A program made the position numbers and the translations under genes. From a bacterium (GTDB lineage: Bacteria; Blakebacterota; Blakebacteria; Blakebacterales; Blakebacteraceae), in contig JALGVQ010000154.1 in assembly GCA_025774615.1 (NCBI GenBank), forward strand, positions 1 through 6,840: a stretch of 6,840 nucleotides of DNA, read 5' to 3'. The stretch's first letter is position 1, and each line of letters starts with the position of its first letter. Of this stretch, positions 2-6,755 are shown piece after piece. The notes beneath the pieces were generated by a model. It was not told where the DNA came from and made no database searches. It worked only from the letters and a program-made list of their open reading frames with translations.

Positions 2-679
2 GTCTCTGACTCGGCCCTCGGTCGGGTAGAGAAGTTCGTGCATGTGAGTTCGATTGCCGCCTATGGCGGACCGGGTGAATATGACGAGACCGATCCCCCC
101 CGCAGGGGCAGGCACCCGTACACGATCACGAAAGCGGTTGCCGAAGAGGTCGTGGATGAGGCGATAGCCAAGGGCTTGAACGCGGTCCATGCCCGGGTCG
201 GAAACGTCTACGGTCCTGATGATCCCAACTTCATGCCCAGAATGATCGAGCAGGCGAAGACGGGCAGGTTCCCGGTGATCGGGGATGGTTCACCGCCCTC
301 CAACCTCATCCATGTCGACGATGTCGCAGACGGGCTCGTCGCCATGCTGAAAGCCGAGACAGACCCCGGGGAACGATTCCTGATCGTGGACCCCGATACA
401 CCTTCGATGCGCGAAGCCGTGGAGATTGCGATCGAGGCCATCGGACTCGACACTACCATCATGCGCATTCCGAAGAGAGTGGCCCTGATAGCAGCCGGTG
501 TGAGTGAGCTGTTCGGAAAGATGACCGGTCGCCGCCCGGCGATCACCCTCTATGCGGTGAGGGGAATGGGTGGGGTAAGGATATTCCACAACGAGCGGAC
601 CATGGAACGGCTCTCATGGAGACCACGGTACACACTGCGGGAGGGGATCGCCGCTACGGCCGCCAGCTACCAGGAGTGA
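2..679 (+). CDS. NAD(P)-dependent epimerase/dehydratase (extended SDR), 5'-truncated by window edge
   Basis: Frame 2 is open from the window edge to the TGA at 677-679, so the GTG at position 38 is an internal Val and not the start. About 225 residues are visible; extended SDRs usually have 310-340, so roughly 100 N-terminal residues, including the GxxGxxG dinucleotide loop, lie outside. Visible landmarks are the strand KFVHVSSIAAYG with the catalytic Ser region, the active-site YTITK (Tyr codon 119-121, Lys codon 131-133), VGNVYGPDD after it, and IHVDDVADGL, the usual start of the substrate-binding half. These fit the epimerase/dehydratase or 3-beta-hydroxysteroid dehydrogenase-like branch, acting in the cytosol on a nucleotide sugar or a lipid-like alcohol. 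The substrate cannot be told. The active site appears intact, unlike the SDR-like gene at 3766-4269. Its 3' end overlaps the convergent dehydrogenase gene. Confidence 0.9.
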   Translation, partial: VSDSALGRVEKFVHVSSIAAYGGPGEYDETDPPRRGRHPYTITKAVAEEVVDEAIAKGLNAVHARVGNVYGPDDPNFMPRMIEQAKTGRFPVIGDGSPPSNLIHVDDVADGLVAMLKAETDPGERFLIVDPDTPSMREAVEIAIEAIGLDTTIMRIPKRVALIAAGVSELFGKMTGRRPAITLYAVRGMGGVRIFHNERTMERLSWRPRYTLREGIAATAASYQE

Positions 680-1757
680 TCAGGGCCTTCATCGAGTTGA
701 ATCCGGCGACGAGTTCCAACCCTTCGTTCGCTTCATCCAGTTCGAACGTGTGCGTCACCATCTCTCGCCAGGGGAAGCGTTCCCTGGTAGCGGCAATCAT
801 CCGGATCCCCCGATAGACATGCGTGAATGCGGTTCCCCAGCACCCGCGTACATCAAGATGTTTAGCGTTGATCTGAGTATGGGGATTCACCGAGATCTCA
901 CCGGCGTCGGTGTACTGTCCGACGATCACATACGTTCCGCCATCCCGCGCGAGGTCGAGCCCCTCCCGGACAGCTGCAGGATTACCACTCGCCTCGATCA
1001 CCACATCCGCGCCGCGGCCATCTGTTGTTTCGAGTACCATCTGAAGACGCTCATCCGGTGAGAGCTCATCGACATCAAGGGTCTCGTCTGCTTCGAACCT
1101 GAGCGCGAAGGCGAGTCTGTCACGGGGCGCGCCGATGACGATTACTCTGCCGGCGCCCGAGAGTCTCGCAAAAGCCGCCGCGGAGAGTCCCACCGGCCCG
1201 GCACCCTGAACCACCACGATGTCATCCATTCTGATCCCGGCGCGTTCAACAGCGTGGAAACCGGTCGAAAGGCCGCAGCCCGCGCCCATGTAATCGTGCG
1301 GTTCCATCCCCTCGGGCAGGGGGATGATCTTCATCCCCGCCTGCAGGACGATCTGTTCCGACCAGCCGCCGAAGAGACCTTCGTCAGCGCCGTAGGTGAT
1401 ACCGTACACTTTTCGGCTCGGGCACTTCGTGGTCTCCTGCGCCACGAGACAGTGCCAGCAGTGGCCGCAGGTCTCGTGCACGTCAAGAAAGGTCACGACC
1501 TGGTCACGTGTGACCGGTCGACCATCGACATCGATGACCTCGCCGCCGGTTTCCAGCACTTTACCGACTGATACGTGACCGGGAATGAGCGGGTAGGGGA
1601 CACCGGCCAGTTTTCCATGGTGGAGATGTACGTCGGTGCCGCAGATCTCGCTGCAGAGTGTCTCAAGGAGCACTTCACCGGGCTGGATCTCCGGATCGGG
1701 GTATTCACGTATCTCGAGCGGATCCATCGGATTCGGCATGACGACGGCTCGTACCAT
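654..1757 (-). CDS. Zinc-dependent medium-chain alcohol dehydrogenase (MDR superfamily)
   Basis: The 367-residue product is full length for an MDR alcohol dehydrogenase (about 340-380) and should oxidise an alcohol or reduce an aldehyde or ketone with NAD(P). The GroES-like domain holds the catalytic zinc ligands Cys39 (in CGTD), His61 (in PGH) and Cys161 (in GCGLSTG). The structural zinc lobe is Cys97, Cys100, Cys103 and Cys112; the last gap is 8 residues, against 7 in horse liver ADH. The Rossmann motif GAGPVG is at 185-190. Two deviations stand out. The Glu that normally follows His61 (GHE) is Val62; I recall GHVSVG from related proteins, so it may be a subfamily trait. The acidic residue expected at the end of the second Rossmann strand is Gly (VIVIGAPRDR), which may allow NADP. 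The gene starts 14 bp after the ALDH-family gene, so co-transcription is likely and an aldehyde relay is possible. Substrate unknown. Confidence 0.9.
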   Translation of the reverse strand: MVRAVVMPNPMDPLEIREYPDPEIQPGEVLLETLCSEICGTDVHLHHGKLAGVPYPLIPGHVSVGKVLETGGEVIDVDGRPVTRDQVVTFLDVHETCGHCWHCLVAQETTKCPSRKVYGITYGADEGLFGGWSEQIVLQAGMKIIPLPEGMEPHDYMGAGCGLSTGFHAVERAGIRMDDIVVVQGAGPVGLSAAAFARLSGAGRVIVIGAPRDRLAFALRFEADETLDVDELSPDERLQMVLETTDGRGADVVIEASGNPAAVREGLDLARDGGTYVIVGQYTDAGEISVNPHTQINAKHLDVRGCWGTAFTHVYRGIRMIAATRERFPWREMVTHTFELDEANEGLELVAGFNSMKALITPGSWRP

Positions 1758-1774
1758 GGGATGTTATTCCTCTA
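1758..1774 (-). promoter_or_regulatory. Stop codon/ribosome-binding-site junction between ALDH and ADH genes
   Basis: On the minus strand the ALDH stop TAG (1774-1772) is merged with the Shine-Dalgarno sequence AGAGGA (1773-1768), followed by a 10-nt spacer and the ADH ATG (1757-1755). The arrangement fixes the ADH start. It suggests translational coupling, because a ribosome terminating on the upstream gene would sit on the next gene's binding site. The spacer is slightly longer than ideal. Confidence 0.6.
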
Positions 1775-3448
1775 GAAAAGGCTCCGCCAGCGACGCACCA
1801 GGGAGCTGAATCGGGTTGAACGGCGGAAATGTCGCATCATGAGGAGTCGGCGCATACGATTCAGTTTGCGGATCGCCCCCCGCTGATGGATGGCGCCCAG
1901 GGCAGTGCGCAGGAAGTCCCGGAGTTCATGCGAGTAAGGGAACCACCAGGCAGCCGATGAAGCGCGGTACTCGTAACTGACGTGTTTGATGCGGCAGAGA
2001 GCTGCCAGACCGTGACGGCCGTGGCTGCGGCCGACGCCGCTGAAGCCCTCACCTCCGAAGCAGGCCGACGGTTCCACATATCCCGAGGCGTGGTCGTTGA
2101 TGCCCACCATGCCGGCCTGCAGACGGTCGGCGAGCCACTCCGCCTTCTCGGCATCTTCAGTCCATGCGCTTGCTGCGAGACTGTTTCGCGATTCGTTGGT
2201 CAGCTCAACTGCCTCCTCCAGCGAATCGACCGCCATCACCGGGAGAACCGGCCCGAATGTGATGTCGCGCATCACGTGCATCTCGTGAGTGGCGCCAGAG
2301 AGGAGGGTGGGGGGATAGAAAAGACCGGGGCCTTCGGGCATGGCGCCGCCCGAGAGGATCTCTGCTCCACGAGCCACGGCATCGACCACGTGCTCATGGA
2401 CCTTTTCACGATCCTCGGACAGTGTCATCGGGCCGATATCGGTCTGGGGCCTCCGTGGATCACCGAGACGGAGTGAGCCGCAGACTGCAGCGAGACGCTC
2501 GAGAAACGCTGCTTCGATCTCCCGCTCCACGTATACCCTCTCCACACCGAGTCGTATCTGTCCGACGTTCGAAAATCCCCACCACGCGATTCCGACCGCA
2601 GTGCGCTCGAGGTTGCAGTCAGCGGCTACGATCGCGGCGTTGTTTCCCCGCATCTCCAGGTTGACTGACTTCATCGCTTCGGCTGAAGAGCGGAGTATTT
2701 TCCTGCCGCTGTGCTCCCCGCCAGTGTAGCCGATCCGCGCGATATCGGGATGCTGGACGATCGAAGCGGCCGCTTCATCATTGATGAATACGGTATTCAC
2801 GACCCCGGGCGGCACGCCGGCCTCTTCAGCCATCCACTGGATCGCGAGTGAGGTGAACGGGGTGACGAGACTCGGTTTGAGGATCACGCTGTTGCCGACC
2901 GCGAGCGCCTGGGCCACCTGTATCGCGGGAGTGAGGAGGGGGTAGTTCCAAGGCGTTATGAACATGGTTGGCCCGGCGGGCTCGAACCGGATCTCACCCT
3001 TGCGGCCCGCGAGCATCGGATTGCGGAAGATCGTTTTCTCCGCCTCCATGATCCGACGGGAATGCCGGGAGAGGTGACGCCAGAAGTCGGCTGAGACCAT
3101 CAGTTCGATGGCATATGATTCGGCGACCGGCTTGCCCTGTTCCCTGGCGATCAGGTCGACCAGCTTCTCCTGGTAGGCAACGATGAGCTGGGCAAATTTC
3201 TCCAGACACCGTCCCCGCAGGTAGAAGGAGAGGTCCCTCCAGATCGGAAAGGCGCGAACGGCCGCTTCGACCGCGAGCTCACCGACTTCGGTGCCCCCGA
3301 CCAGTATCTGTCCGAGGGGTGTGTCATCGCAGGGATTCATGACCTCGGTCGATCGTCCCTGGGGGATCTCCTCACCCATGATCCAGGAGCCATACTCCTG
3401 GTCGGGATCAGGTAGCAGTTTCAGGAGGTGATCATTCTTCGTCAGCAT
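1772..3448 (-). CDS. Aldehyde dehydrogenase-family protein lacking the catalytic Cys (probable pseudoenzyme)
   Basis: From the chosen ATG the product is 558 residues. The ALDH fold is clear: PWNYP with Asn168, ILKPS with Lys191, the Rossmann turn GYTGG, Glu265 in EMRGNN, and FGPV. Key positions are changed. The nucleophile motif (normally NxGQxC) reads SNVGQIR, with Arg299 (codon 2554-2552, CGA) at the Cys position. The Glu two residues before FGP that binds the nicotinamide ribose is Ile396. The second Gly-pair position in ELGG is Arg267. GGxKxSG reads GGEGFSG. Thioester chemistry should be impossible, so the protein is either non-catalytic or does something else. A C-terminal extension with WWFPYS (about 501-506) ends in an Arg-rich tail. 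The frame stays open to an ATG at 3637, but family alignment starts near residue 20 and a promoter-like element lies inside the extension, so 3448 is preferred. That ATG has no good Shine-Dalgarno, and an ATG at 3379 is possible. The ADH gene follows. Confidence 0.85.
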   Translation of the reverse strand: MLTKNDHLLKLLPDPDQEYGSWIMGEEIPQGRSTEVMNPCDDTPLGQILVGGTEVGELAVEAAVRAFPIWRDLSFYLRGRCLEKFAQLIVAYQEKLVDLIAREQGKPVAESYAIELMVSADFWRHLSRHSRRIMEAEKTIFRNPMLAGRKGEIRFEPAGPTMFITPWNYPLLTPAIQVAQALAVGNSVILKPSLVTPFTSLAIQWMAEEAGVPPGVVNTVFINDEAAASIVQHPDIARIGYTGGEHSGRKILRSSAEAMKSVNLEMRGNNAAIVAADCNLERTAVGIAWWGFSNVGQIRLGVERVYVEREIEAAFLERLAAVCGSLRLGDPRRPQTDIGPMTLSEDREKVHEHVVDAVARGAEILSGGAMPEGPGLFYPPTLLSGATHEMHVMRDITFGPVLPVMAVDSLEEAVELTNESRNSLAASAWTEDAEKAEWLADRLQAGMVGINDHASGYVEPSACFGGEGFSGVGRSHGRHGLAALCRIKHVSYEYRASSAAWWFPYSHELRDFLRTALGAIHQRGAIRKLNRMRRLLMMRHFRRSTRFSSLVRRWRSLF

Positions 3449-3513
3449 GAGCACGATGCCTGTCGCGGGTCCGTCGGTGGTCCACCGGACGATCTGTACG
3501 GAGACCGGTGGTG

Positions 3514-3541
3514 AGTATAGAGAATAATGGAGCGGGTGCAA
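3514..3541 (-). promoter_or_regulatory. Candidate sigma70-type promoter for the ALDH-ADH pair
   Basis: On the minus strand TTGCAC (3541-3536) is followed after 16 nt by TATACT (3519-3514), a 5/6 match to the -10 consensus with a weak 3/6 -35. Transcription would start near 3507, giving a leader of about 59 nt before the ATG at 3448. If real, it rules out the longer start at 3637 for this transcript. It is a by-eye match; a member of Bacteroidota would use a different promoter consensus. Confidence 0.35.
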
Positions 3542-3664
3542 AGTGAACGCCCGCTGTATGTGTGAAAAATCCGAAAGAACCAGCCATTCTCCAGCAACAG
3601 ATAACCTCCCTTGAACGGCATTAATATTCATTAACATGCTTATATGATTTATAAAATATGAATA

Positions 3665-3686
3665 GTATACAATAATACATGTATAC
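3665..3686. repeat. Paired GTATAC palindromes around ATACATGTAT
   Basis: GTATAC occurs at 3665-3670 and again at 3681-3686, exactly 16 bp apart. Each copy is self-complementary, so the pair could also form a hairpin with a 10-nt loop. The 10-bp palindrome ATACATGTAT (3675-3684) overlaps the second copy. In DNA this AT-rich such words arise fairly easily by chance. Confidence 0.4.
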
Positions 3687-3687
3687 A

Positions 3688-3728
3688 GTTATAAAAACCT
3701 TATAACATCTGTTATAGGTACTAATAAC
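3688..3728. repeat. Four alternating GTTATAA half-sites (possible operator array)
   Basis: Half-sites are GTTATAA at 3688-3694, its exact reverse complement TTATAAC at 3700-3706, GTTATAG at 3711-3717, and TAATAAC at 3722-3728. Start-to-start steps are 12, 11 and 11 bp, and the orientation alternates. The middle pair gives a perfect dyad, TATAACA-TC-TGTTATA (3701-3716). Spacing near one helical turn with alternating orientation resembles a cooperative operator. No regulator gene lies in the window, so the binding protein is unknown. Confidence 0.45.
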
Positions 3729-3733
3729 GTGTA

Positions 3734-3763
3734 AAACAGTTTGTAATGATAGTAATACTGTTT
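3734..3763 (-). terminator. Weak stem-loop just after the SDR-like gene
   Basis: AAACAGT (3734-3740) and ACTGTTT (3757-3763) are perfect 7-bp inverted repeats around a 16-nt loop, starting 2 nt after the TAA of the SDR-like gene on the minus strand. Reading that way the stem ends in TTTTA. It could be a feeble intrinsic terminator, but the stem is short and AT-rich and the loop is large. It could equally be part of the regulatory repeats of the island. Confidence 0.25.
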
Positions 3764-3765
3764 AA

Positions 3766-4269
3766 TTATTCTGTAACAAGCTTCAATATGGCATCGCACG
3801 CAATGGTGTCCGTCAACACCTGATCTGCAGGGACGTCGGCGAGTTCCGCTCCGGGGACGCTGGTATTGTTGTAGCGCACTATCCTGCCGGATTCCGGCTC
3901 GACCTGGATGATGACCCCCGATCCCTGTTCCTCCATCAATGGCGCGACATATTTCTCACAATGAAAGAAGCTGACCTGATTTGACTCTATACTCGCGTAG
4001 GTGATGAGAAGGTCGATCCGTCCGAATTGCTGCACTGTTCGACTGAGAGCGGCCGAGAGCTGTCCCTCTACCGTGATATCTGCCGTTATGGTCAGGATAT
4101 TCCGTCCACTCTCCTCGCCGATCTTCGTGGCGATGTGCATCATGCTCTTCCGGTCCCGATCGATGATTGCCAGATCGAATCCCTCTCGGGTCAACCGCTG
4201 AGCGATCGACGTGGCCAGATCCCGGATACCGCCGGCAATGACCGCTATTCTCTGATGATTATCTGTCAT
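3766..4269 (-). CDS. Short, degenerate SDR-like protein without catalytic residues
   Basis: At 167 residues this is about 80 shorter than a classical SDR (about 250). The N-terminal Rossmann half is recognisable: strand RIAVIAGG, Asp37 ending the second strand (NAD-type), ADIT around Asp64, and GRIDLLITYAS where NNAG is normal. TGxxxGxG is reduced to AGGIRDLAT. Later, GSGVIIQVEPESGRIV matches the beta-5 region and by eye recalls sorbitol-6-phosphate dehydrogenase. Aligned without gaps, that places Pro125, Val138 and Glu142 at the catalytic Ser, Tyr and Lys. The helix carrying the conserved Asn, and most of the C-terminal substrate lobe, seem deleted. The start is well supported by GAGGAG 5 nt upstream. 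A dehydrogenase activity is unlikely. It may be a nucleotide-binding pseudoenzyme or a decaying gene; the intact frame and good ribosome site slightly favour expression. Confidence 0.7.
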   Translation of the reverse strand: MTDNHQRIAVIAGGIRDLATSIAQRLTREGFDLAIIDRDRKSMMHIATKIGEESGRNILTITADITVEGQLSAALSRTVQQFGRIDLLITYASIESNQVSFFHCEKYVAPLMEEQGSGVIIQVEPESGRIVRYNNTSVPGAELADVPADQVLTDTIACDAILKLVTE

Positions 4270-4556: not shown

Positions 4557-6755
4557 ATGAGACGACGTTTCGCCGCTGCTGCCGGGATACCGGCACTCCT
4601 TCTCTTTCTCTCTTCCGCCTCAGCACAGACCACCGAACAGCAGCCATTCCGACCACTGAAGACCGATACACCACCGGTGATCGACGGGGTGCTCGACGAC
4701 GAGGTCTGGCAACTGGCACCGAGTGAGACAGGTTTCAAGACTTTTTACCCCGACTATGGTATCGATATGGTGGAGAATACGATCGTCTATTACGCCTACG
4801 ATCGGGAAAACCTCTACTTCGCCTATCGCTGTCTGGACAGCAGGCCCGACCTGATAAAGACCTCGATAACGGCTCGTGACCGAATCAGACCCGACGACTG
4901 GATCTGTATCAACCTGGACACCTTTAACGACCACCAGTCACTCTTTGCTTTTTACACGAATCCTCTCGGGATCCAGATGGACAGCCGCGCAACGGCGACC
5001 TCGGAGGATGCGAGCGCTGATTTCGTCTGGTACAGCGCCGGTCAGATCACCGATGAGGGGTACACGATCGAGGTGCAGATCCCCTTCAAGAGTATCCGGT
5101 TCTCCTACAGGGAACCGGTGATCATGGGAGTCATCTTCGAGCGGTATATCAGCAGGCTGTCACGGGGCGGAACGTATCCTGCTCTGGATCCCCGGCATGG
5201 TCCGAACTTCCTGACCCAGACGAGACCGCTTATCTATGAGGACATCAAGCATTACCGGCTGGTCGAGGTTCTGCCCGCTGTTACATATGGGGCGACCAGT
5301 ACGATCAACGAAGGAAGTCTGGATTCCGACGATTCCGAGAGTTCCTTCAGTCTGACCGGGAAAGTGGGTATCACTTCACATCTCGTCCTGGACGGTACCA
5401 TCAATCCCGATTTCAGCCAGGTGGAGACCGATGCCGGGCAGGTCGATATCAACCGGCGCTCTCCACTCTTCTTCCAGGAGAAACGCCCCTTCTTCCTGGA
5501 AGGGCGCGAGTACTTCGATTTCGGCGCGAGGGCCGACGGTGGATTCCTGGGATCGGTGGTGCACACACGGACCATCGTCGATCCATCAGTCGGGGTGAAG
5601 CTCACCGGGAAGATAGGAGACCGGAACACGATCGCGACGATCTATGCTTCCGATGAGTATCCTCAAACTTTCGATGCCGGGCACCCGGCGTACTCCCCCG
5701 ATCCGGCGAACTCAATGATCTTCCGCTACAAGCGAAGTCTGAGTGGGGACAGCTTCATCGGCGGATTATTCACTCAGCGGGATGAAGGGGATGCTTTCAA
5801 CCGGGTGGTCGGAGTCGACGGACTTATCAGACTCAATCCCGAGAGCCGGCTGAGTTTCCACGCCTTTGGCTCGCAGGATGAAGACCCGGCTACACTCCTT
5901 GATACCTCCGGGCGGGCACTGGGCCTTGACTACACCTACTACACCCGCGACTGGATGGTGAATGTTCTCCTGCAGGATGTGACCGACCAGTTCAACACCG
6001 AGACCGGATATCTGCGCAGGAATGGCGCGACCAGGTACCAGTTCGGGGTGCTGAAGATGCTCTACCCGGAATCGGACTTCATCCTCCGGACCGATCTCCT
6101 GGTGCACACCATCCATACAAGAGATCATCCCAGTGCGCTGTGGGAGCGCTACAACGCGCTCGATGGAAGATTGATGCTCGGGCGGAGTTCGATGGTGCAG
6201 CTTGGGTACGTCATGTCGAACGAGATCTTCCGGGGATTCCGGTTCGAGACTCAGGGGCTCCGGGTGAGGGCCAGCAGCCAGTTCACCAAGCGGCTCGCTC
6301 TCAACCTCTCGTATCGGAACGGCAAGAAGATCCGGTATACCTACTCGACCGATCCCTACCAGGGAAACGGTACCGACCTCTCCGGTTCGGTCGTCTACCA
6401 GTTCACCGACCACCTCAGTTCCAGCCTCAGCGCCACCTACAGTGAATTCATCAATGATGCGACATCTGTGAAGGAATATGACTACCAGATATACCGGAGC
6501 CGGAACACTTATCAGATAAACAAGTACCTCTTCATCCGGGCAGTTGTTCAGTACAACACCTTCTACGAGGAATTGACCACTGACCTGCTTGCTTCATTTA
6601 CCTACATCCCCGGCACAGTAGTGCACATCGGGTACGGCTCGCTCTATAACCGACTCAAATGGGATGGAGCGCTGATGGACTACGTGGGTGCTGACCGCTT
6701 CCTCGAGATGCAGAGAGGCTTTTTCTTCAAGGCTTCATATCTCTGGAGGCTGTAG
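4557..6755 (+). CDS. Exported CBM9-like / DUF5916 outer-membrane protein
   Basis: The product has 732 residues, within the family's usual 700-850. It begins with a Sec signal peptide: MRRR, a hydrophobic core, and a likely cut after ASA at residue 23. Residues about 38-225 form a CBM9-like beta-sandwich, recognised by IDGVLDDEVW (42-51), the YYAYDRENLYFAYRC strand pair and the NLDTFNDHQSLFAFYTNPLG segment. From about 230 on is the DUF5916 part, with DFSQVETDAGQVDINRR (285-301) and EKRPFFLEGREYF (308-320), then many alternating aromatic strands ending in YLWRL, as in an outer-membrane beta-barrel. The family's role is not established; carbohydrate or glycan binding is inferred from the CBM9 fold only. 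The start is supported by GGGGG 4-5 nt before the ATG and by the signal peptide. It is divergent from the SDR-like gene and looks intact. Confidence 0.92.
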   Translation: MRRRFAAAAGIPALLLFLSSASAQTTEQQPFRPLKTDTPPVIDGVLDDEVWQLAPSETGFKTFYPDYGIDMVENTIVYYAYDRENLYFAYRCLDSRPDLIKTSITARDRIRPDDWICINLDTFNDHQSLFAFYTNPLGIQMDSRATATSEDASADFVWYSAGQITDEGYTIEVQIPFKSIRFSYREPVIMGVIFERYISRLSRGGTYPALDPRHGPNFLTQTRPLIYEDIKHYRLVEVLPAVTYGATSTINEGSLDSDDSESSFSLTGKVGITSHLVLDGTINPDFSQVETDAGQVDINRRSPLFFQEKRPFFLEGREYFDFGARADGGFLGSVVHTRTIVDPSVGVKLTGKIGDRNTIATIYASDEYPQTFDAGHPAYSPDPANSMIFRYKRSLSGDSFIGGLFTQRDEGDAFNRVVGVDGLIRLNPESRLSFHAFGSQDEDPATLLDTSGRALGLDYTYYTRDWMVNVLLQDVTDQFNTETGYLRRNGATRYQFGVLKMLYPESDFILRTDLLVHTIHTRDHPSALWERYNALDGRLMLGRSSMVQLGYVMSNEIFRGFRFETQGLRVRASSQFTKRLALNLSYRNGKKIRYTYSTDPYQGNGTDLSGSVVYQFTDHLSSSLSATYSEFINDATSVKEYDYQIYRSRNTYQINKYLFIRAVVQYNTFYEELTTDLLASFTYIPGTVVHIGYGSLYNRLKWDGALMDYVGADRFLEMQRGFFFKASYLWRL

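Follow-up and report, generated by a model that had tools for sequence, protein, structure and literature searches.

Organization of the locus

The window, a stretch of 6,840 bases that makes up one entire contig of a draft metagenome, belongs to an incomplete 3.3 Mb metagenome-assembled genome and carries on its minus strand a gene (1772–3448, stop codon counted) for a 558-residue protein, here termed Arg-ALDH, which has the aldehyde dehydrogenase (ALDH) fold and lacks the catalytic cysteine. The longest open frame at this site, 3637–1772 on the minus strand, spans 621 codons and matches the Pfam profile PF00171 with 417 bits against a cut-off of 23 (E 8.5e-125; residues 95–553 of the 621-residue version). 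This frame is open from ATG 3637, and the alignment of the gene with its two orthologues begins at ATG 3448, which is the likely start because both orthologues begin there and are likewise 558 residues long; the in-frame extension at 3449–3637 (minus strand) is probably untranslated. With this start, the number 299 that the initial annotation assigned to the altered nucleophile residue is right. Equivalents are given in ALDH2 numbering, in which Arg299 corresponds to Cys302, Ile396 to Glu399, and Arg267 to Gly270.

The whole-domain profile match together with the ALDH fold places the protein in the ALDH superfamily (PF00171) by descent. An AlphaFold2 model (mean pLDDT 85.6, pTM 0.81) is confident in the core and poor at residues 451–480 and in the C-terminal tail, and solved ALDHs match it with Z of about 50 (49–50) and rmsd of about 1.6–2.3 over ~475 residues (Foldseek/VIA). 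Putative side-chain contacts in the pocket are drawn from homology. The tail, which starts with WWFPY at residue 501 and reaches the C terminus (1775–1948, minus strand), comprises 58 residues with a net charge of +13 and is predicted to form a helix. Matching tails occur in relatives such as L057, L011, and L012, where they are shorter or less basic.

Downstream of the Arg-ALDH stop, after a gap of only 14 bases, begins a gene for a zinc-type alcohol dehydrogenase (ADH; 654–1757, minus strand; PF00107/PF08240), and the two genes likely reside on one transcript. Convergent with ADH is a gene for an NAD-dependent epimerase/3beta-HSD-type short-chain dehydrogenase (SDR), truncated by the contig end (2–679, plus strand; PF01370). 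Four genomes, all from one family and all incomplete (63–85%), represent the phylum; ADH, the epimerase, and Arg-ALDH occur together in three of these, and none of the three genes has an orthologue in the fourth. Orthologues of ADH are found in both genomes of the sister genus (G002 and G003), which keep the convergent ADH/epimerase pair, and none is found in G001. In the sister genus, Arg-ALDH is located away from ADH, with upstream neighbours that are DUF362-like and M55 peptidase-like (named from sequence only), so that the functional tie to ADH and the epimerase, built on one adjacency among four incomplete genomes, is suggestive. More distant ADH homologues (51–53%) have no adjacent ALDH in the stretches read, and no consistent partner accompanies the tail-bearing ALDH relatives, whose neighbouring gene contents are mixed.

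Three further features of the window were recorded. An SDR-like gene (167 aa; 3766–4269, minus strand), 0.3 kb upstream of Arg-ALDH, is a second degenerate dehydrogenase alongside it: shrunken relative to the sorbitol-6-phosphate-dehydrogenase-like SDRs of its own and related genomes, it has lost the Gly-rich motif, the NAG motif, and Tyr-x-x-x-Lys, has two stretches deleted, and has no orthologue in any of the three remaining genomes. Positions 3601–4000, in and around the gap between this gene and Arg-ALDH, are A+T-rich (41% GC, against ~59% just downstream and 56% upstream). Finally, 4557–6755 on the plus strand encodes a secreted-looking protein of 732 aa with CBM9-like and DUF5916 regions.

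Active-site residues and selective constraint

The initial annotation described an ALDH with arginine in place of the nucleophile, further active-site losses, and several retained residues; direct codon reading confirmed every codon and coordinate that it quoted. Arg299 is encoded by CGA (2552–2554, minus strand), two changes away from both TGC and TGT, and gives GQIR where GQxC is expected. Its codons are CGA/CGC/CGA across the three orthologues, and every other homologue aligned has Cys at this position, Arg being confined to the three-member clade. Arg267 (CGG, 2648–2650, minus strand; CGG/AGG/AGG across the three) turns ELGG into EMRG at Gly270, a glycine in 98% of the other ALDHs aligned. 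Ile396 (ATC, 2261–2263, minus strand), Val in both orthologues, replaces the nicotinamide-ribose ligand Glu399, which is present in all other homologues aligned. Thus two defining features of a catalytic ALDH, the Cys302 nucleophile in GQxC (Arg in 3/3) and Glu399 at the nicotinamide ribose (Ile/Val/Val), are missing. The residues reported as kept are the same in all three orthologues, namely the general base Glu268 (Glu265; GAG, 2654–2656), the oxyanion-hole residue Asn169 in PWN (Asn168; AAC, 2945–2947), and the cofactor ligand Lys192 in LKPS (Lys191; AAA, 2876–2878), each on the minus strand and with an invariant codon. Two more active-site changes in Arg-ALDH, which the initial annotation overlooked, are Ser246 to Gly and the replacement of Pro by Cys463 directly before the FGG motif. 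Cys463 (2062–2060; TGC/TGT/TGC across the three) has no counterpart among the other homologues aligned, 94% of which have Pro. At Arg299, Arg267, and Cys463, codons differ synonymously among the three copies and the residues are constant.

GQIR, the Ile at Glu399, and EMRG therefore stand as active-site losses. GGEGFSG, listed with them as a loss (K469G; the Gly468 codon of the window copy is GGC, 2047–2045, minus strand), was rejected as such: active-type, Cys-containing ALDHs carry FGGxGxSG, and the motif is hence uninformative on inactivation. Loss of the GxG cofactor loop as a result of lost catalysis was likewise rejected, as the Cys-containing L057 has an identical VTDE loop, and the loop change therefore probably predates the loss of Cys.

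The concentration of change at the active site was quantified by aligning the three Arg-ALDHs with ALDHs from their own and from further genomes (54 non-redundant rows). Among the 34 positions with conservation of 95% or more in the other ALDHs, the Arg clade keeps 31, Asn169, Lys192, and Glu268 among them, and alters only G270R, C302R, and E399I/V, all of which are catalytic or cofactor residues. With a 90% threshold, 6/57 positions are altered and all six lie in active-site loops, compared to 24/57 positions overall (p 0.004); the enrichment has p 0.03 at 85% and is not significant at 80% and 95% (p 0.11 at both).

Arg-ALDH is under purifying selection. Nei-Gojobori counts give dN/dS values of 0.147 and 0.123 for the comparisons across genera and 0.077 for the pair inside the sister genus; these are approximate because dS is high (1.0–1.6). 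The ratio is greater when the window copy is compared (0.12–0.15) than within the sister genus (0.08). The adjoining intact ADH gives 0.097 and 0.099 by the same method. No stop codon interrupts any of the three copies. The strongest constraint falls on the FGG-motif segment, in which residues 446–478, GMVGINDHASGYVEPSACFGGEGFSGVGRSHGR (2015–2113, minus strand), form a 33-residue block identical in 3/3 orthologues that contains Cys463. This block is the longest invariant run, a length matched in 0/5000 shuffles, with pN = 0 in all three comparisons and pS = 0.40–0.60; in ALDH structures generally, the equivalent segment carries the FGG motif and lines the active site on its substrate side. Loss of the catalytic motif combined with purifying selection (dN/dS 0.08–0.15, no stops) is the signature of a pseudoenzyme, and the proposal that the long open frame reflects selection for some function that is altered or no longer catalytic is accordingly supported by these values and by the shared replacements. 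The outcomes that would have contradicted it did not appear: close homologues with Cys were not found, the only ones carrying Arg, Ile/Val, and Arg, and dN/dS is far from 1.

Phylogenetic placement and distribution

In a maximum-likelihood tree the three Arg-ALDHs cluster together (100/100), united by a stem of 1.11 changes/site that gives way to short branches. Such a long stem succeeded by constraint is the trace that one would expect from a change of function. The group is nested within a 31-row ALDH set (100/97), most members of which have a C-terminal WW(F/Y)PY tail, and its tree position together with WWFPY at 501–505 assigns it to this tail-bearing clade, for which no name was found in the libraries used. 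In the tree, L057 is a candidate for the sister of the Arg clade. Cys-containing tail ALDHs, namely L057 (G322), L011/L058 (G022), and L012 (G037), share the 31-row set and the tail motif with Arg-ALDH, and L057 additionally shares the VTDE cofactor-loop sequence and an alignment that extends to the last residue. Unlike Arg-ALDH, these relatives keep GQxC, EETFGP and, in all but one, ELGG, and they are 31–36% identical to it. Among curated bacterial families, aminobutyraldehyde, succinate-semialdehyde, and betaine-aldehyde dehydrogenases share the fold and give significant profile matches (best 321.9 bits), but Arg-ALDH falls far under all cut-offs listed (500–909 bits) and lacks the catalytic Cys.

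Arg-ALDH is present in three of the four genomes of the phylum, representing three species and two genera, and is missing from the fourth (85% complete, 530 contigs), a member of the same genus as the window. The two orthologues, both from the sister genus, are 71–72% identical to the window protein, and both read GQVR, VTFGP, EMRG, and GGEGFSG. Their assemblies were deposited separately, one as Candidatus Latescibacterota (RS_11_2) and one as Candidatus Zixiibacteriota (CSMAG_1180). A profile search of 386 genomes and a peptide-pattern scan of 84,980 species genomes, limited in reach by its reliance on two short peptides, returned no more members; among the genomes searched, the Arg clade is found only in this tiny phylum. 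A phage origin was considered and rejected, for no relative of the Arg form occurs in viral contigs and all viral ALDHs read keep Cys. Many large viral contigs (L100–L149) do encode ALDHs, with PWNFP, GQRC, and EVFGP, and the catalytic Cys is present wherever they were read.

Functional interpretation

In the ALDH reaction, Cys302 attacks the substrate, hydride is transferred to NAD, and hydrolysis follows with the assistance of Glu268 (PMC8160307). As Arg-ALDH offers no thiol at the Cys302 position, this classical reaction should be impossible for it, and we are highly confident that it represents a conserved pseudoenzyme within the ALDH superfamily. Losing Glu399 by itself reportedly affects which step is rate-limiting rather than NAD binding (PMC8160307), and we therefore infer from the combined changes, rather than from this one, that NAD(P) binding would be weak or different. 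The enzyme has probably been converted to a binding or partner protein, in which the substrate tunnel would persist as a binding pocket. There, Arg299 beside the kept oxyanion-hole Asn168 could bind a carboxylate resembling the acid that the active ancestors produced, and the basic C-terminal tail could tether the protein to an acidic partner or a membrane. Within the ADH/epimerase pathway, with which it is co-inherited, Arg-ALDH may serve as a partner for binding, sensing, or scaffolding. Taken whole, the reading in which selection maintains the pocket and basic tail of a pseudoenzyme for binding, probably in the service of that pathway, is moderately favoured; the role as a carboxylate-binding partner is a guess, and a rather unlikely one.

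Two trivial explanations fare poorly. A sequencing or assembly error at Cys302 would be conceivable in a draft metagenome contig, but the same residues recur in two further assemblies from different isolates, where the codons differ synonymously. Since these independently assembled orthologues share every substitution, a single sequencing error is no explanation, as had been argued from the codon, and an error of either kind is refuted and has a negligible probability. Plain decay, in which the gene would be a still open pseudogene with a lost active site, gains some credit from the shrunken, motif-less SDR-like gene 0.3 kb upstream, by which gene decay may occur nearby. Against it speak the low dN/dS, the absence of stops in three species, the identical replacements, and the 31/34 intact top conserved positions; refuted by the selection test, decay is highly improbable.

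The main rival is a cryptic enzyme acting through Glu265 or Cys463. Some other chemistry is possible because Glu268, Lys192, and Asn169 are kept and an invariant Cys463 is new in the active-site segment, and hydrolysis, hydration, or thiol chemistry of a relocated Cys, for example, could be carried out by Glu268/Lys192/Asn with Cys463 or the two new arginines. The confinement of Cys463 to the three Arg-ALDHs and its place within the invariant block favour this idea, as does the catalysis by migrated residues known from other pseudoenzymes (PMC10211241). The loss of Glu399 and the gain of Arg270 speak against normal cofactor use, however, and nothing points to any particular reaction, which leaves a cryptic enzyme unlikely. 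Of similarly low probability is a rebuilt site in which Arg267 and Arg299, the kept Glu265 and Asn168, and the relocated Cys463 would together make up a novel site, either anion-binding or catalytic, and the protein would be membrane-associated; if true, this would be a natural ALDH working without Cys302 chemistry in an uncultured phylum. Less probable still is a regulatory role in which Arg-ALDH, itself inactive, would join an active ALDH paralogue from its own cell in mixed oligomers and tune it. ALDHs are dimers or tetramers (PMC6127216), and the genome has other Cys-containing ALDHs, one of which (L003, GQLC) belongs to the same broad clade. Yet L003 is just 35% identical to Arg-ALDH, and any specific partner co-occurring in the sister genus is hypothetical.

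The closest precedent for a conserved pseudoenzyme is human ALDH16A1, to which the initial annotation had drawn a parallel. It is reported to lack the entire catalytic triad (PMC10650815) and to be a binding protein that has no dehydrogenase activity (PMC8160307, PMC10650815). Both proteins are ALDH-superfamily members without the catalytic Cys that are retained by selection, and to this extent the parallel holds; beyond that it is an analogy only, for Arg-ALDH is bacterial, keeps Glu268 and Asn169, and has no evident close kinship to ALDH16A1. The ALDH16 type has a large extra non-functional C-terminal domain (PMC8160307), whereas the 558 residues of Arg-ALDH comprise only one ALDH match plus the 58-aa tail. 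The omega and eta crystallins of the eye lens are likewise ALDHs recruited to a non-enzymatic role (PMC10650815), but these are animal proteins with a structural function of which Arg-ALDH gives no sign. The ALDH-superfamily pseudoenzymes that we found described are animal proteins, and Arg-ALDH is a lineage-restricted case from bacteria; a search of the open-access literature gave no report of a bacterial ALDH without the catalytic Cys.

Owing to the shared replacement, the long stem followed by constraint, and the identifiable Cys-containing relatives, the step from enzyme to non-enzyme is directly studiable here. Automatic tools would label this gene an aldehyde dehydrogenase, and uncultured bacteria could be credited with an oxidation that they may not perform using Arg-ALDH. 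Elsewhere among the tail-bearing ALDHs, L073 (G170:C24) keeps its Cys, reads ELEG for ELGG, has Leu at a near-invariant Arg, and is possibly another altered ALDH.
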